From a virus, in the IMG/VR virus record IMGVR_UViG_3300010430_000365, positions 1-28,768 of that record: DNA of 28,768 nt, one strand, 5' to 3'. Positions 3,947 to 25,030 of the stretch are shown one piece after another. Made by a program: the position numbers and the translations under genes. The first letter of the stretch is position 1. Every line of letters starts with the position of its first letter. The notes beneath the pieces were generated by a model. The model did no database searches, was not told the DNA's origin, and saw only the letters and a list, made by a program, of their open reading frames with translations.

Positions 3947-4822
3947 TCAAGAGGTAATCGAACCAAGTTGATGGGAAAGCCACTCGATTGTTGGAGCGAG
4001 ATCGACTTGGTCGGCCAGCGCGATTAGACCATCCAGTTGGCTCACGTCATCCAGATCGATCTCTTCGGGAAGATCCGGTTGAACTCGATGGTAAGTCCTT
4101 TCACTCTGGAGGAAATGACGCGCCTGGAAGTCGGCGACGTCGACACTGCCATCGACGAATGGGACCAGGAGCTTCTGCCCCCAGTAGGTGATTCCTCGAT
4201 CTCCACCTTCCAAAACGCCTGGAAATCTTCCTGTCCCAAGTGAAAGAACTTTGATCTCGGAGAGAGGTGTTCCCTTGCTCTCCACGTATGCCATGGCACA
4301 TACAGCGCAGTTGTTCGCCGCCAGTCCTCCATCAACGTGACGGTCCGCGCTCGGAAGATAGGTTGGAGCGGAGCCGGACCAGAGGGCTAGATCAGCAACC
4401 CGTAGATCAGCATCGCTGCGGTCGTAGAACTTCGCACGAGCCGGCTCAAAGGGGCTCTTTCGACCCAGGAAATAGGTCGCAACCAAGACGTCCTTCTTCA
4501 GATCGGCGAGCCGAGCGTCCCCAAAGACCTCCCTTAGATTCCGCTTGAGAGCATCATTGGTGTACTTGGCTCGCCAGAAAGTCGTGAACCTGCGCCACCA
4601 CGAAAGCTCAAAGACCTCCGGCAACCGATTGCGATAGAACTCGAAGACTTCGAGTGGCGAGAGGCCGTGCGCCAGCCCAAGGGCGAGAAGTCCGCCTGTT
4701 GACGCACCGGCAATCAGATCGACACGGTCAAGCCAACCTGGAAGCTCGTGTTCGATCCGCAGAATAAGGCTCGCGGTGAGCATTCCGCGCACGCCACCAC
4801 CATCGAGACTCAGAATAAGCAC
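3947..4822 (-). CDS. Patatin-like phospholipase (acyl hydrolase)
   Basis: 291 residues from a GTG start with GGGGGTGA just upstream. Patatin hallmarks are complete and in order: the oxyanion loop DGGGVRG (residues 7-13), the nucleophile elbow G-A-S-T-G with Ser41 (39-43), and the catalytic Asp164 in H-V-D-G-G (162-166). Patatins use this Ser-Asp dyad to cleave acyl chains from phospholipids. There is no signal peptide or membrane segment, so it should act in the cytosol or at the inner face of the membrane. The whole protein is essentially one patatin domain with a short C-terminal tail. It sits alone, divergent from a zinc-knuckle gene and upstream of the adhesin operon promoter. Related bacterial patatins include CBASS effectors such as CapV. 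A phage copy could aid lysis, remodel membrane or exclude competitors; none of these can be chosen from sequence. Confidence 0.93.
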   Translation of the reverse strand: MLILSLDGGGVRGMLTASLILRIEHELPGWLDRVDLIAGASTGGLLALGLAHGLSPLEVFEFYRNRLPEVFELSWWRRFTTFWRAKYTNDALKRNLREVFGDARLADLKKDVLVATYFLGRKSPFEPARAKFYDRSDADLRVADLALWSGSAPTYLPSADRHVDGGLAANNCAVCAMAYVESKGTPLSEIKVLSLGTGRFPGVLEGGDRGITYWGQKLLVPFVDGSVDVADFQARHFLQSERTYHRVQPDLPEEIDLDDVSQLDGLIALADQVDLAPTIEWLSHQLGSITS

Positions 4823-12359: not shown

Positions 12360-13424
12360 GTGGCTGCAAAGCAATACAAGATTTACTGCGAGACAGACTC
12401 TAAGTGGGAGACATGGCTCCTCGATGAGGATGCTCCAGCACCTACCACTTGTCCTACTGATACCGGACACACCGTCACCGGTGGCTCTGTGGCAGAGGTG
12501 CGGACCATCGGAATGGGCGACGTCGTCGTCACCAACACCCCAGGCGTCCAGATGCGTAAGCCAGACGGCCTGACCCACGGGCGGGTCTACGGGTTCTCAG
12601 TCAATTTCTGCGACAAGACCACCTGGTATCACAACGCGCCTGAGGTGGCGGACGAAGCTGTGGGAACCGGAGACGGGGCCCAGGTTACATGGCCCTTGGC
12701 GCACGGCACCGACACCCACGCGGACGAGCGGATTATCGACCTCTCACACGGAAAGCTCTCAGAAGAGAACAACATTCCGAACCCGGCGGGCACCTTCCGG
12801 GAGATGGGCAATGGATACGGCGCTACGTTGGCTGCGACCCTGAGCGGCTACGTTCCCATCGTCAAGGTGAACGGCGTCGAGTTGACTGAGCGTCCCTATG
12901 GGGACGCCAGCGGTAGCGACTACACCGTCGACTACGTCACCGGCGAGATCACGTTCATGGTGGCGCCTCCGGACACGCACGCGATCACCGCGACTTACTA
13001 CTACGCCGCTGCCACAGACGTTGCTTGCTCAATCGTCGTTCCGGAGGCTGGCAAGAAGTATCAGATCGACCGGGTCGAGATCCAATCGACGCCTGATTCT
13101 TGCCCCATGACCGACATCGTCATGAACGTCTACGCTGGCGCTGCGCCCCCGAACGGCTTTCCGATTGCCCGCCCTACGATCATCAAGAACGTCACGGACA
13201 TCGTGAACTGGGCCTACGGCGCTCGACCGCAGATTCCCGCGCAGGGCGGAGCTAACGCTCGTGCGCTCGACACCGCCGTCAACATCCACCAAGTTCGCTA
13301 CGCGTCCTCGATCCCACTCCTGTCGAGCATGGCGATGTATATGCAGGTCCATCTTGCTGGACCAGTCGAGTTCGACGGGACGTGGGCCACCATCGTAATC
13401 TACGGAATCGAAGAGGCAGAGTAG
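12360..13424 (+). CDS. Phage tail/baseplate-type structural protein
   Basis: 354 residues from a GTG 4 nt after the previous stop; TGGAG in the end of the upstream gene serves as SD. The N-terminus carries a small module common in large-phage structural proteins: YKIYCETDSKWETWLL..APTTCPTDTGHTVTGGSVAEV, with two Cys about 20 residues apart. The middle contains two strand-turn modules (VTWPLAHGTDTHADERIID and VKVNGVELTERPYGDASGSD.TVDYVTGEITFMVAPP), the second being the same 'DY.TGeItF..aPp' motif found in the tail sheath insertion. The C-terminal 140 residues are a beta-sandwich with 'KYQIDRVEIQSTPDSCPMTD'. A virion appendage or baseplate component is likely. Confidence 0.83.
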   Translation: MAAKQYKIYCETDSKWETWLLDEDAPAPTTCPTDTGHTVTGGSVAEVRTIGMGDVVVTNTPGVQMRKPDGLTHGRVYGFSVNFCDKTTWYHNAPEVADEAVGTGDGAQVTWPLAHGTDTHADERIIDLSHGKLSEENNIPNPAGTFREMGNGYGATLAATLSGYVPIVKVNGVELTERPYGDASGSDYTVDYVTGEITFMVAPPDTHAITATYYYAAATDVACSIVVPEAGKKYQIDRVEIQSTPDSCPMTDIVMNVYAGAAPPNGFPIARPTIIKNVTDIVNWAYGARPQIPAQGGANARALDTAVNIHQVRYASSIPLLSSMAMYMQVHLAGPVEFDGTWATIVIYGIEEAE

Positions 13425-14613: not shown

Positions 14614-15342
14614 TTAGCCTCCTGTGAACGGACGATCCGAGAGGCCCCGGAATCGGTACTTGTTGCCCTCGGTCTCGAAGTCGTCTCGGCCGATGAACTT
14701 GACCTTGGTCGAATTGGATTGACCACCACCGCCAGCGCCTTGGACGATCTCACTGAAGGTCAGAGTTACAGTGGCGACCCGGATCTCTCCGTTTGGGAAC
14801 CAGGACTCAATGGTGATCGGCGCCGACTTCAAGATCACTCGAATGAGGTCCGAAGATCCGCCCAACTTGGTGTTGGGGAACACCAGGGTCAGGATCTTGG
14901 GAGGCTCTGTCTCACCAAGCCGACCGCCTTCTGAATACTTGGGCATCATCCAGGACCGGATCTTGGAGAGCGCAGCAGAGACGTTGACCGTGAACGGCGC
15001 TGAAGGCACCGAAGTGAATGTGGTATTGGCTGTGATGTTCGTGCCGCCATCGAGGTCGTTGGCTAAATTCAACTCGGCGGTGAAGATCGCCTCGAACGTG
15101 ATCGTGCGCCCACGCCCTCCAACCCACTGGTAGACCGGGTGAGAGCCGCCAGGAATCGAGTGCTCAGCGTATTCGACGCCATAGTCGTCCGAAAGCGAGC
15201 CCGGCCAGTATTGAAAGAAGAGAGACTGCTGCTGGGCGATCTGCTGCTTTCCCTTGGCCCCCATAATGGCACCGTCGTTCGTCGGGAACAGATAGCACCT
15301 TTGAGGTGCCTGGTCCTGCAAACTGTCTTGTGTCGTGCCCAT
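14614..15342 (-). CDS. Baseplate / contractile-injection tube-type protein (putative)
   Basis: 242 residues; GGAG lies 7 nt before the ATG. The order of blocks fits the N-terminal domain of CIS tube/LysM baseplate proteins (Afp7- or T4 gp53-like): 'LFFQYWPGSLSDDYGVEY', then 'PVYQWVGGRGRTITFEAIFTAEL', a helix 'VSAALSKIRSWMMPKYSEGG', then 'PPKILTLVFPN', 'SDLIRVILKSAPITIESWFPNGEIRVATVTLTFSEI'. In that family the domain links the inner tube to the baseplate hub. No LysM domain is visible, since the protein ends about 35 residues after the last strand. Baseplate assignment is by pattern recognition and is plausible, not certain. Confidence 0.65.
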   Translation of the reverse strand: MGTTQDSLQDQAPQRCYLFPTNDGAIMGAKGKQQIAQQQSLFFQYWPGSLSDDYGVEYAEHSIPGGSHPVYQWVGGRGRTITFEAIFTAELNLANDLDGGTNITANTTFTSVPSAPFTVNVSAALSKIRSWMMPKYSEGGRLGETEPPKILTLVFPNTKLGGSSDLIRVILKSAPITIESWFPNGEIRVATVTLTFSEIVQGAGGGGQSNSTKVKFIGRDDFETEGNKYRFRGLSDRPFTGG

Positions 15343-15362
15343 GATCGCTCCGCTTACCTGCG

Positions 15363-15391
15363 ATTATGTCATGGTAAGTCGGGACTTGCGC
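15363..15391 (-). promoter_or_regulatory. Extended -10 promoter for the minus-strand baseplate pair
   Basis: On the minus strand CATAAT (15368-15363) is preceded by TG one base upstream, and GCGCAA (15391-15386) lies 17 nt upstream. Between them TTAC sits at the same position as in the promoter at 3910-3938. The 4-bp arms AAGT and ACTT around CCCG form a small dyad in the same place as AACC/GGTT in the other promoter. The expected transcript start is near 15356, 14 nt before the ATG at 15342, just leaving room for its GGAG site. Confidence 0.65.
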
Positions 15392-15429
15392 CGCGTCGAC
15401 GATGGATCCTTCAGTAACCCTAGGGGAAA

Positions 15430-15477
15430 GTGGATAGAAACGAAAGAAGGCGGCCTCAACCGAAGTTGGTGCCGCCT
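15430..15477 (-). terminator. Strong intrinsic terminator with UUCG tetraloop
   Basis: Reading the minus strand: outer stem AGGCGGC/GCCGCCT, a 2x2 internal loop, inner stem CAAC/GTTG capped by UUCG with a C-G closing pair, then the T-rich run TTCTTTCGTTTC (15447-15436). The polarity is unambiguous, because the tetraloop and the T-rich tract exist only on the minus strand. No minus-strand protein gene of convincing quality lies just upstream, so it probably terminates the structured RNA at 15435-15981. Confidence 0.8.
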
Positions 15478-15981
15478 GCTTCCTAACTCTTCGTCGACTG
15501 GGCTGCTAGTTCTGTTTGGACGGTGAAGAACATCCAGACCTAGCCGCTGCACGCTTAGTCGGCATTACCCGCTACTACTCGCTGTTATCCCAGCTTCCCC
15601 GCCGCGCCTCTTCCTGGTCGGGCACCTTCCGGATTTGACTCCATGGGCAATCCCGTCCGATCTCAGCCTACCGAAGTGGACTGACCAGAGCACCGACCCG
15701 TTCGCTTGTTGTGGCTTTCACCACAGCTTGCTTGCGCGTCGACTTGACCCTTCTTCTCTGCCTCCCGAAAGAGACAGAACCTTCTGGGCTCTGCACGAAC
15801 AACCGATCCAGGAGTTTCCTGGTGAACCTGAATCCTTCCCGAGCCGAAGCTCGCTCTTGATCCCGATTTGCGCGCCGCTCTTCCTCCGAGTAGCCTGCCG
15901 AAGCTGACTGCTCGATGGCTCCTAACGCCCTCGATCTCACGGTGAAGTTGTCAAACTGCAACACCCAGCCGTCGCTGAGCA
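15435..15981 (-). ncRNA. Putative large structured non-coding RNA (about 545 nt)
   Basis: The gap between two divergent gene blocks is dense in minus-strand hairpins. In transcript order: CUCAGC/GCUGGG (15979-15964); arms CGAGCAGUCAGC and GCAGGCUACUCG with a UUCG loop (15914-15887, two mismatches); CGAGC/GCUCG with UUCG (15853-15840); CCAGGA/UCCUGG (15822-15808); GUCUC/GAGGC around UUUCG (15779-15754); UGUGG/CCACA (15725-15710); CAGUCCAC/GUAGGCUG with UUCG and two bulges (15683-15664), which with GGGAUU/AAUCC is enclosed by a long-range GGUCGG/CCGACC pairing (15698-15693 with 15621-15616); GCUG/CAGC (15594-15581); UAGU..CGG/CCG..ACUA (15577-15556); then the terminator. Four C(UUCG)G loops on one strand only argue for RNA function. 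It sits where GOLLD- or ROOL-like phage RNAs might; class membership is untested. Confidence 0.55.
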
Positions 15982-15987
15982 GGACTC

Positions 15988-16035
15988 TTTAGACCAAAGC
16001 GCCCTGACAGCCTCAAGCCTAATCTCAAAAAAAAA
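15988..16035 (-). promoter_or_regulatory. Putative promoter with T9 upstream element for the structured RNA
   Basis: On the minus strand TTGAGG (16016-16011), a 17-nt spacer ending in TGG, and TCTAAA (15993-15988) make a modest promoter with extended -10 character. A run of nine T (16035-16027) lies about 10 nt upstream of the -35, in the position of an UP element. The predicted start near 15981 immediately precedes the first hairpin of the structured RNA. Confidence 0.4.
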
Positions 16036-16131
16036 CGTAAGTGCCTCCAAGACCACACCTGGCGGGATCAGCACGATGTCAGGTTGCTCACCAACCTGCT
16101 AGGATAGCTGGACTTCTGAGTAGGAAGATCC

Positions 16132-16941
16132 ATGGCAACCGACGGACAGAATGTCCCTGAAGAAGTCCCTCTGGGGGCACCAGCCGGTCAACCCGGCCCT
16201 ACAGGGAAGACCAAAGACGAATGGTGGGGCTACGCTCTGCGCAAGCTGGGCAGCGGAATCATCGACGTCGAACTGACGAACGAGCAGAAGATCGACTGCT
16301 TGGACGACACAGATCGGTGGTTTGCTGAGCGTGTCGGGTTCATTCAGTACTCGCAGCTTCCGATCATTCCGGGCCAGTCGAACTACTTCCTATCGAGCAA
16401 CGTCATCGAGGTTTTCGACCTCTGGCTGCCGAGCTTCCAGCTTCCAACGCTGGATGTCGACTCGTTCTCCTTCACCTACTTCACGAGTCTCTTCGGCGCC
16501 TGGACAAGTCCTCAACAGGCCCCAATGCCCTACTCAGACCTCGTTCAGCGTCTCCAATACCTGGAGACCATTGGTCGAATCTTCTCGACCGACCGCGACT
16601 GGGACTGGCAGCCGGAGCTTCGTCGCCTGGTGATCTCACCTCCTCCGCGCGCAGGCGGGCTCGGAACCATGGTCGCAAGCGCGATCATCAAGGCGGGCTC
16701 TGCCACCATCTACCCCGAACAACTGGATCCCCGAAAGGGCGACTTCTACCGGCGCAAGCTCCTCATTGAGGCTATGCGCACATTGGGAAACATCCGCAGC
16801 ACATACGACGCCTACCCCACAGTGGGTGGTGAACGCTCCATGAATGGTGGTGCGCTGATTCAGCGAGCAGACACCCTGGAAACCAAGCTGGAGCAAGACG
16901 TCATCAACCATGAGCGGTCTACCCCGCTCATCTCTGGTTAG
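16132..16941 (+). CDS. Putative neck / head-completion protein (T4 gp13-like)
   Basis: 269 residues; GGAAG 7 nt before the ATG. After a Pro/Gly-rich 25-residue leader, residues about 28-110 read 'WWGYALRKLGSGIIDVELTN' then 'EQKIDCLDDTDRWFAERVGF' then '..NYFLSSNVIEVFDLWLP'. This pattern (LG..vi.VELT.eQ....ld.a..w) is shared by neck or head-tail adaptor proteins of T4-like and other large myoviruses. The middle is a Trp-rich beta/alpha region and the C-terminal 70 residues are helical. It is the first gene of the plus-strand neck-sheath-tube block, which fits a head-tail joining role. The named function is inferred. Confidence 0.6.
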   Translation: MATDGQNVPEEVPLGAPAGQPGPTGKTKDEWWGYALRKLGSGIIDVELTNEQKIDCLDDTDRWFAERVGFIQYSQLPIIPGQSNYFLSSNVIEVFDLWLPSFQLPTLDVDSFSFTYFTSLFGAWTSPQQAPMPYSDLVQRLQYLETIGRIFSTDRDWDWQPELRRLVISPPPRAGGLGTMVASAIIKAGSATIYPEQLDPRKGDFYRRKLLIEAMRTLGNIRSTYDAYPTVGGERSMNGGALIQRADTLETKLEQDVINHERSTPLISG

Positions 16942-22027: not shown

Positions 22028-25000
22028 GTGGCACAGGTCCAGCAACTCTCTCCGGGAGTCTTCGGAGTTGAGGTAGCCCCAACGAGGGCACAAGAAGGCA
22101 TTTCACCCGCCAAGATGGGAATCATTGGCTGGACGGACCGTGGTCCGACCAACACTCCCATCGAGGTTCGCTCCGTTGAAGAGTTCAACTCTTTCTTCGG
22201 GCCGATCAACCAGCGTGGCCTTGTGGCCATCTCCATGCGTGCCTTTTTCGGCACCGGTGGTCAGCGCGCGTGGGTTGTTCGAGTCGTCCCTGCTGACGCT
22301 GTCGAAGCGACAGTGGACGTCGACGCGCCCGCGAAGTGGACCTTCACAGCGAACGGTGAAGGTATCTGGGGCAATGACCTCATCATTCAGATCGAAGGCA
22401 ACCGGAACTTCCTCGACCGGACGGCCGGCGCTGAGGCGTGGACCAAGTTCGACCTGAAGGTTCTCCAGCCGACAGCGTTCGATCCTGCGATCTTCGCTGC
22501 TGCCGAGACGTTCGAGGCGATCCAGTTCGACGATCCGCTCGCTTCGGACTACGTCGTCGCAGCCATGACCGATCCGCGAAACCCGTCGCTGCTGGTGGAC
22601 ATCGTCACCGGCGCTGGTGGGACGCCGGATGGTCTGCTTCGGACTGACGTCGCTGACCTAGTGATCGGCACGGGTGACGCTCTGGGAACGACTCAGTTCC
22701 TCGGCACTCTAGCCCCAGTACCCGTGATGACCAACACCCTCCGAATCATTGCAGCCGATACGGCTGTCGCTGATGAGGATCAGTCGACTGGTGTTGCCTC
22801 GGGTCCGACCACTCTCTTCACCAACCCTGGTGTTGCGGCGGTCCATGATCTGGCTACGACCCCGATCACGGTCGGCCTGTCCATGGCTCCTGGCTCTGTG
22901 AGCGTCTCCATCGATATCGGTGCTGGTCCTGTGGCCCAGGTCGATGACGGAGCAGGTGCGTTCCCGATCACGGCTGAGCTTCCGGCTGGTGGCACGGTGG
23001 ACTACAACACCGGTGCGCTGACTGGGATCACGGCTGTTCTGCTCGCAAGTTCGGCGATCACCGAGTCTCACACGACTTCGTTGGTCACCCCGGCTATCGA
23101 CAACGCGGCGACCGGCTTCACGTTCACCCTCCCGACCGCTCCGGTTCTGGACGGCAGCCTGCGTCTCTTCGCAGCCCGCAGCCCAGCCATTGCGAACGAG
23201 GCGGTGACCGTCACCGGAGCTATCGACGACGCCAATACGGTCTACACCGTGGCGACTGGCGCGCTGACCGACAAGGTCCACCGTGAGACTGCTGTCTTCC
23301 GGCTCAAGTACGCGGCAACCGGGTCTTCTGTCGGTCCCACCAATATCGGTGCGAGCGCCGGACCTGCTGTTGATCTGAGCACTATGACTGCAATCGGCAC
23401 CCTGCCGGTTCACCCAGGCACGCTCTCTATCGACACGATCACGGGTGCTGGTTCGATCACCGACGATGGCGCCGGTGGCCTGATCGGCGTCGACATGGCC
23501 GGTGCAGGAACCATCGACTACGACACCGGTCTCATGACCGGTATGACCGTTCCTCTCGCAGTTGGCACTCTTGACGAGACGCACAACACGTCCTCGATCA
23601 TCACGAAGACTTCAACTGGCGACAACCTGGAGGTCGGTGCAGCGCTGGCCGGCGCTGTCACCGCAGGCACCATCGACCTGGTCGACAATGTGACGACTCC
23701 GACCGCCAACGGTGCGCTGTCGTTCACGACGACTGTGTCTCCGACCGCCGGCACGCTCTTCTTCCTGGACTTCGTCCGGCTCATGGTGATCTCTTCGGAC
23801 GTCGCCGGAAACCTGACCGGAGACATCGGGATCGGCAACAACCTGGCTGACTTCGTCACTGGTGACGTCGACATCGAGTTTGCGGCTGCCCCCCTTCAGG
23901 GTCAGACGCTCGACGCCAGCTACCAGACTGGTCAGGTGGCAATCGACGACGGCCTCGGGAACCTGGTGGGAGACGTCGACGCTGTCGGCAACAACACCAT
24001 CGACTACGAGACCGGTGACTACGACATCACCTGGGACTCGGCACCGCCTGACACAACCGCGATCTTGGCGAACTACGTCAACATGCCGCGCGTCGTCCAG
24101 TTCCAGTTGGCTGGTGGCCTAGACGGCACGGCTGTCACGCGCGCAGATATCTCCGACCCGGCGTTGGAAGACGCCCGCGAGGGTATCTATGCGTTTGACG
24201 ACGTCGAAGACCCGCTCAACCTGGTCGTTCCCGACTTCGAGGGTTCGCTCTTCGTGCAGGCCGACATCGTCGACTACTGCGAAGCGCGAAACACCCGGTT
24301 CGCGATCCTCGGGTTCGCGAACGGCACCTCGAAGGAAGAGGCGATCAAGTACGTCCTGGTCGATCAGGCTTACGACACGAAGGTGGCGGCGACCTACTGG
24401 CCGAACGTCTTCTTCGTCAACGAGGTCTCGAACCGTCCGGAACTGATTCCGGTCACCCCATTCATTGCGGGTGTCTACGCCAAGACGGCGTTCAACAAGA
24501 ACGTCGGCAAGTCGCCTGGTGGTATCGAAGACGGTGCCCTCGACGCGAACGGTGTGGTCGGTCCAGAATACGGCAAGCTCATCAACGACATTCGTGTCCG
24601 CGACGACCTCTACCAGAGCCGGATCAACCCTCTCTTCAACAGCGACGCCACCGGCTTCGTTGTCTGGGGCGTGCGCTCGCTGTCGACCGAGTTCCGTTGG
24701 AGGTACGTCAACGCGCGTCTCCTCCACAACTTCCTCATGGACGCAATCAACCGGCAGCTTCAGTGGGCTGTCTTCGAAAACAACGGCCCCCAGCTTTGGA
24801 TCAAGATCGAGACCGCCCTCAAGGGCTTCATGGGCTCGCTCTACCGCCAGGGCTACTTCGCCGGAGTCACCGAACCTCAAGCGTTCTTCGTGGTCTGCAA
24901 CGCCACGAACAACAACCAGGGGACTATCGACAACGGTCGAGTCATCATCGATATCGGCTTCAGCCCATTCAAGCCGGCCGAATTCGTCATCTTCCGGCTC

Positions 25001-25030
25001 AGCCAGCCGGCCAGCACGATCACGGTCTAA
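22028..25030 (+). CDS. Tail sheath protein with large beta-domain insertion
   Basis: 1000 residues from a GTG with AGGGGG upstream. The N-terminus is classic sheath: 'LSPGVFGVEVAPTRAQEGIS', 'GIIGWTDRGPTNTPIEVRSVEEFNSFFG', 'ISMRAFFGTGGQRAWVVRVVP'. The C-terminal third (about residues 685-1000) is the polymerising sheath domain: 'ATYWPNVFFVNEVS', 'GPEYGKLINDIRVRDDLYQSRINPLF', 'WGVRSLSTEFRWRYVNARLL', ending in 'IDIGFSPFKPAEFVIFRLSQP'. Sheath subunits slide past each other as the tail contracts. Residues about 230-685 are an insertion with three 'DDG.G.l....G.iDY.TG' modules and a 'GAIDDANTVYT' module, making the protein much longer than the 400-660 residues usual for sheaths. The insertion is probably displayed on the tail surface. 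Confidence 0.97.
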   Translation: MAQVQQLSPGVFGVEVAPTRAQEGISPAKMGIIGWTDRGPTNTPIEVRSVEEFNSFFGPINQRGLVAISMRAFFGTGGQRAWVVRVVPADAVEATVDVDAPAKWTFTANGEGIWGNDLIIQIEGNRNFLDRTAGAEAWTKFDLKVLQPTAFDPAIFAAAETFEAIQFDDPLASDYVVAAMTDPRNPSLLVDIVTGAGGTPDGLLRTDVADLVIGTGDALGTTQFLGTLAPVPVMTNTLRIIAADTAVADEDQSTGVASGPTTLFTNPGVAAVHDLATTPITVGLSMAPGSVSVSIDIGAGPVAQVDDGAGAFPITAELPAGGTVDYNTGALTGITAVLLASSAITESHTTSLVTPAIDNAATGFTFTLPTAPVLDGSLRLFAARSPAIANEAVTVTGAIDDANTVYTVATGALTDKVHRETAVFRLKYAATGSSVGPTNIGASAGPAVDLSTMTAIGTLPVHPGTLSIDTITGAGSITDDGAGGLIGVDMAGAGTIDYDTGLMTGMTVPLAVGTLDETHNTSSIITKTSTGDNLEVGAALAGAVTAGTIDLVDNVTTPTANGALSFTTTVSPTAGTLFFLDFVRLMVISSDVAGNLTGDIGIGNNLADFVTGDVDIEFAAAPLQGQTLDASYQTGQVAIDDGLGNLVGDVDAVGNNTIDYETGDYDITWDSAPPDTTAILANYVNMPRVVQFQLAGGLDGTAVTRADISDPALEDAREGIYAFDDVEDPLNLVVPDFEGSLFVQADIVDYCEARNTRFAILGFANGTSKEEAIKYVLVDQAYDTKVAATYWPNVFFVNEVSNRPELIPVTPFIAGVYAKTAFNKNVGKSPGGIEDGALDANGVVGPEYGKLINDIRVRDDLYQSRINPLFNSDATGFVVWGVRSLSTEFRWRYVNARLLHNFLMDAINRQLQWAVFENNGPQLWIKIETALKGFMGSLYRQGYFAGVTEPQAFFVVCNATNNNQGTIDNGRVIIDIGFSPFKPAEFVIFRLSQPASTITV

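Follow-up and report, generated by a model that had tools for sequence, protein, structure and literature searches.

Genes and homologues around the gap

The analysed stretch of DNA, hereafter the window, is an IMG/VR record of 28,768 nt with virion genes of a myovirus-like phage, i.e., a tail sheath (phrog_23), an Ad2-like adaptor (phrog_211) and a weak phrog_76 match. A gap at 15343-16131 separates a minus-strand gene from a plus-strand gene. The gap measures 789 nt, in agreement with the initial annotation, which had noticed about 790 nt without a convincing gene and had proposed that the minus strand encodes a large structured RNA. The features of the locus are as follows.

14614-15342, minus strand: probable tail (tube-like) protein gene, 242 aa, downstream of the RNA (phrog_76 tail, E 4e-4)
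15442-15981, minus strand: structured noncoding RNA of about 540 nt, assigned with high confidence (four homologues, alignment A4, consensus fold)
15988-16016, minus strand: promoter-like site with conserved spacing, consisting of TTGAGG (16016-16011), a 17-nt spacer ending in TGG, and TCTAAA (15993-15988)
16132-16941, plus strand: head-tail adaptor Ad2-like gene, 269 aa, divergent, upstream of the RNA (phrog_211, E 2e-7)

Against Pfam GpU/CIS_tube, the product of 14614-15342 reached E-values of only 0.03-0.05. When the adaptor protein was searched against 50,697 phage records no close relative of the phage was found; the only matches, at 25-27% identity, were to a pair of phages of about 350-366 kb. 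The related contig L013, listed below, encodes T4-type portal (intein-containing) and baseplate wedge proteins as well as a prohead core protease, and the RNA gene belongs to a large, T4-like and uncultivated myovirus lineage. The portal gene (L072:5887-9579, plus strand) encodes 1230 aa, the intein bearing a Hint module. In the window, the tail sheath gene (22028-25030, plus strand) is unusually long at 1000 aa, and its similarity to phage records lies mostly in the C-terminal third. A patatin-like phospholipase gene (3947-4822, minus strand; Pfam PF01734, E 9e-27) is placed among the virion genes and could encode a membrane-acting or lysis enzyme, while 12360-13424 (plus strand) has a weak glycoside-hydrolase-like match (phrog_2913, E 3e-5) and is perhaps a tail-associated depolymerase.

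Searching with the adaptor protein retrieved five IMG/VR contigs, and an alignment of adaptor proteins gave no relatives beyond the same five. The adaptor gene adjoins the RNA or its site in all of them, with a product 83-94% identical to that of the window. The RNA was found in four of the five contigs, always between the adaptor and tail genes, in a single copy per contig with the same two neighbours every time, and with a length of 484-548 nt.

L010:11781-12320, contig 3300031965_000607: homologue
L011:4315-4862, contig 3300010412_000867: homologue
L012:102-637, minus strand, contig 3300031565_010528: homologue
L013:3322-3805, contig 3300022699_000232: homologue

When the genomes of IMG/VR and GTDB were scanned for the motifs, real matches came only from the same four contigs; the other matches either lacked the second motif or failed the covariance model, and were counted as chance. 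DNA similarity searches against the 50,697 phage records returned just chance matches of about 25 nt.

The fifth contig, L003 (3300037264_004201), has kept both neighbour genes, with an adaptor protein 87% identical, but only 115 nt lie between them, and the RNA is absent from this gap and from the rest of the 19 kb contig. The midpoint-rooted adaptor tree joins L003, the window and L002/L010 in one group (support 99/98), and on this grouping the simplest reading is that L003 has lost the RNA. Since so close a relative is without it, at least one phage can dispense with the RNA.

Just upstream of the RNA, on the same strand, L011 and L012 carry a gene of 136-144 aa (L005:3527-3937, minus strand; L006:749-1183, minus strand), the two products being 41% identical, and L013 has a remnant of it with no intact frame (L069:2807-3214, plus strand). 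The product had no match in Pfam or in the phage records. Neither the window nor the available sequence of L010 contains the gene, which makes an obligate partnership with the RNA unlikely.

Protein coding was ruled out for both strands by broken frames and by the lack of codon-position bias. A 98-aa frame on the minus strand, whose conservation had been named beforehand as evidence against an RNA, is interrupted by stops in all four homologues (L010, L011, L012 and L013), and a 90-aa frame on the plus strand is interrupted in L010. Substitutions between the window and L010 fall on the three codon positions as 25/41/42 within the RNA, compared with 14/6/89 in the adjacent adaptor gene.

A covarying fold on the minus strand

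The window and its four homologues were aligned by plain MAFFT (alignment A4, five sequences, 568 columns). RNAalifold assigned 175 consensus pairs to this alignment, with 88.9% of cells paired. Of these pairs, 65 are altered on both sides with pairing kept, a number reached in none of 500 shuffles. Relatedness among only five sequences is, however, not removed by such shuffling, and the structure comes from the very alignment on which it is tested. Two controls answer these points in part. Firstly, when the 3' partners were slid by 1-3 columns, pairing fell to 34-46% and changes on both sides to 12-18 pairs. Secondly, in a leave-one-out test the structures derived from four sequences were 79-93% paired in the fifth, against 36-43% after sliding, and 25 of the 34 pairs which differed on both sides from all other sequences could still pair; enrichment over shuffles of the new pair combinations in the left-out row was confined to L010 and L012.

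The RNAalifold consensus energy had a z-score of -15.9 for the RNA strand and -6.1 for its complement (120 column shuffles), a difference which sets the polarity to the minus strand, as predicted in the initial annotation. Single-sequence folding energy was rejected as proof, being too weak for the window: the minimum free energy was 1.5-1.9 SD below dinucleotide shuffles, with the plus strand equally low. The expectation of a folding energy below shuffled controls was thus borderline for the window itself and clearly borne out only in the four homologues (z -3.5 to -5.0). The case from the window sequence alone stayed open, and it was decided by the homologues, which supplied the strong covariation that had been proposed as a check. 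The fold and its polarity are shown by covariation, and 15442-15981 on the minus strand is almost certainly a conserved gene for a structured noncoding RNA.

The core of the consensus fold is made of P1, P2, P4, P12 and P17, and carries the arms P6-P8, P9-P10, P11, P13-P14, P15-P16, P18, P19-P20, P21 and P22-P23. Position p of the RNA corresponds to 15982-p in the window, and the elements, all on the minus strand, are listed below in window coordinates.

15948-15981: nearly invariant 5' motif, TGCTCAGCGACGGCTGGGTG-NNNNN-GTTTGACAA (alignment A4)
15963-15980: P1 5' arm, pairs with 15486-15503 and closes the whole RNA; 15 pairs, 95.9% of cells paired, one compensatory
15958-15962: P2 5' arm, pairs with 15546-15550; 100% paired, 3/5 pairs compensatory
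15939-15950: P4 5' arm, pairs with 15591-15602; 12 pairs, 5 compensatory
15870-15930: branch P6-P8, UUCG cap in 4/5, includes the 12-position stem 15887-15914 (consensus fold)
15825-15868: branch P9-P10, UUCG cap in 4/5, 9 compensatory pairs
15808-15822: hairpin P11, 6/6 pairs in 5/5 sequences (structure-weighted alignment)
15793-15797: P12 5' arm, pairs with 15603-15607; 100% paired
15746-15790: branch P13-P14 (consensus fold)
15692-15743: branch P15-P16; its base, 15738-15743 with 15692-15697, holds 6, 6, 6, 5 and 6 of 6 pairs
15663-15684: hairpin P18, includes the bulged stem 15664-15683, UUCG cap in 5/5, 7/9 pairs compensatory
15620-15653: variable arm P19-P20, absent in L013; alignment uncertain, with just five homologous sequences
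15591-15602: P4 3' arm, pairs with 15939-15950
15551-15582: hairpin P21, 96.2% paired
15546-15550: P2 3' arm, pairs with 15958-15962
15505-15544: hairpin P22-P23, nearly invariant loop GUUCUUCACCGUCCA; 4/5 pairs of P22 compensatory, no covariation support found for P23 in the A4 consensus fold
15486-15503: P1 3' arm, pairs with 15963-15980
15442-15483: 3' hairpin and U-rich tail, probable terminator, with a covarying apical stem

The local hairpins noted earlier on the minus strand are present as described, and the stems at 15887-15914 and 15664-15683 are kept in the homologues with compensatory changes. Also the strand bias of the UUCG loops was reproduced: the minus strand has four CUUCGG loops (at 15903, 15849, 15676 and 15465), and the plus strand of the gap lacks them. 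These caps recur on the same arms in the different sequences, while the stems beneath them differ in sequence. A long-range pairing of 6 bp suggested between 15616-15621 and 15693-15698 did not survive the comparison, as it holds only 6, 5, 3, 2 and 0 of its 6 pairs across the five sequences; it is replaced by the pairing at the base of P15. The 3' boundary, first placed at 15435, lies close by, at about 15442.

The 5' motif, used as a search pattern, retrieves only the same RNA family and chance coding matches. Within it the 5' arm of P1 varies once, from G to A in L012, and the change is matched in the 3' arm. At the tip of P22, the loop GUUCUUCACCGUCCA is conserved beyond what pairing explains, and its CCGUC complements the invariant GACGG at the 5' end; the loop may be a tertiary, intermolecular or protein-binding site. 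A kissing or pseudoknot interaction between GACGG and CCGUC was rejected: 24 of 25 cells are paired, but an A-C mismatch breaks it in L012 and no covariation accompanies it. P1 is preferred, because it uses the same 5' bases and has a compensatory change. Other non-nested stems, with at most three compensatory pairs in stems of 4-5 bp, do not rise above the background of 416 candidates and are unproven.

Probable transcription signals and the downstream tail gene

The promoter-like site is recognisable in all five sequences by TTG and TGGTC at near-identical spacing, and TGGTCTAA occurs in four of them. In the window the first conserved base of the RNA follows the -10-like hexamer TCTAAA at a distance of 7 nt. 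A T9 tract, which had been taken as part of a promoter-like sequence, is not conserved; the promoter-like element that is kept in the relatives is found further downstream. The 3' hairpin is conserved as well, but the textbook intrinsic terminator described earlier is not textbook, its tail being CUUCUUUC. Strict scans made no call, neither for a sigma-70 promoter at 15988-16016 nor for a terminator at 15442-15483. The two signals are therefore supported by their conservation in the relatives, not by consensus score, and we infer that the RNA is transcribed from its own promoter to its own terminator.

The main rival to a free-standing RNA is a cis-acting leader of the downstream tail gene. 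In that case the RNA would serve 14614-15342 as a 5' leader or attenuator of great length, and its folding would set read-through at the 3' hairpin. In five sequences it immediately precedes the tail gene on the same strand, with about 60-110 nt from the hairpin to the start codon, and its 3' end is a terminator-like hairpin. On the other hand, the window, L010 and L013 have a -10-like CATAAT after this hairpin and ahead of the tail gene, and the site is also found in L003, which is without the RNA; this suggests that the tail gene has a promoter of its own, which favours a separate RNA gene over a leader. Moreover, P1 closes the RNA ahead of the hairpin, a scan of stems gave no conserved competing anti-terminator, and the RNA is far larger than ordinary attenuators. 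Taken together we regard the leader as unlikely. GGNACTTRC elements are located upstream of both the RNA (16037-16045, minus strand) and the tail gene (15381-15389, plus strand), and are partly conserved in the relatives; with three matches in the window against 1.3 expected, their enrichment is not significant.

Possible role and relation to known large RNAs

As a free-standing gene, 15442-15981 would be expressed from its own promoter with a start near 15981, and the transcript would end at the hairpin 15442-15483. P1 joins the 5' and 3' ends, and the core P1-P2-P4-P12 bears about eight arms, several of them capped by rigid UUCG loops. The RNA would be present in infection, and useful rather than essential, as judged from L003. 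By analogy to GOLLD and ROOL, the reading we tentatively favour is a trans-acting structural RNA made in infection, either as an RNA-only assembly or as a scaffold for an RNP. More doubtful, but still conceivable, is a new family of natural RNA-only multimers or cages, formed in infection and unrelated to GOLLD and ROOL, or a virion-associated RNA.

A packaging or virion RNA acting at the portal or connector seems quite improbable. The phi29 pRNA is a phage structural RNA, as is the one described here, but it is much shorter, about one third of the length, which counts against such a role. The position beside a head-tail adaptor gene and the restriction to phages would suit packaging, and phi29 offers the precedent, its RNA multimers being mentioned in PMC12286853. 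Against this, the relative L003 has no RNA, and the genes to which it is linked are those for the adaptor and tail proteins, with the portal gene about 62 kb away in the L013 contig.

The RNA was compared with Rfam 15, in which no family, introns, HEARO, OLE, tmRNA and RNase P included, matched it at the gathering threshold, and cmscan of three homologues at E<=10 gave only sub-threshold chance matches. The GOLLD model (RF02032), likewise without a match at gathering, and the ROOL model (RF03087) had no match at E<=10 in the three homologues or in whole contigs, the whole-contig ROOL search having covered all six contigs without a positive control. No tRNA genes were found in the window or in the contigs of the relatives. 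A highly diverged GOLLD or ROOL is therefore very improbable on these unmatched models and missing tRNA genes, despite the size, the phage origin, the multibranch fold and the internal arm that one homologue lacks, which recalls the variable linkers of GOLLD and ROOL. We consider it scarcely probable that the RNA serves as guide or scaffold of a nuclease, retron or intron (HEARO/omega RNA, group I or II, retron ncRNA); such systems use large ornate RNAs of similar size, but besides the negative Rfam result the flanking proteins, when scanned, included no recognisable nuclease or reverse transcriptase, and the small gene beside the RNA in L011 and L012, otherwise only a remnant in L013, has no Pfam match. 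The chance that unrecognised small protein genes explain the locus is practically nil, since the two frames open in the window are broken in the homologues and show no codon bias.

The RNA is a large phage RNA matching no Rfam family, in line with the initial annotation, where it was left unrecognised and the choice between GOLLD, ROOL and a new class was left open. No description of it was found in the open-access literature. To our knowledge, the very large structured RNAs described so far number just a handful. Apparently unrelated to GOLLD and ROOL but of the same size class, and with a covarying fold and a natural relative lacking the RNA, the present family offers an independent test of whether multimer assembly is general among large phage RNAs and of what such RNAs do for the phage. 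It also demonstrates that large RNA classes missing from Rfam can still be found when unannotated gaps of phages are analysed comparatively.

ROOL is an octameric and GOLLD a 14-mer RNA-only nanocage, and ROOL is often found close to tRNA islands. The RNA presented here differs from ROOL in its unmatched covariance model, in having no tRNA genes nearby and in its other conserved motifs. It resembles ROOL in being phage-encoded, multibranched and apparently non-essential, with a variable internal arm, ROOL measuring about 550-660 nt (PMC12286853). Both GOLLD and ROOL were found in 2025 to form RNA-only nanocages, with function unknown (PMC12286853). GOLLD is, similarly, a large ornate phage RNA, which one prophage reportedly does not need in order to produce phage (PMC7567579), but is usually larger and tRNA-associated. 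OLE is ornate and of about 600 nt, but bacterial and protein-bound at membranes (PMC12054373, PMC12265935). The noncoding RNA of about 800 nt from the Vibrio phage ICP1 had no match to a model of the 3' domain of our RNA (best 2.0 bits). Like the present RNA it is large, unclassified and situated in an ORF-less phage gap, and, being abundant, it shows that a phage RNA of such size can exceed every other transcript in infection (PMC7567579); it adjoins a lysis cluster, whereas ours adjoins virion genes. With its several hundred nucleotides, covarying multibranch fold and noncoding nature, the RNA belongs with these large ornate phage noncoding RNAs as a loose kind.
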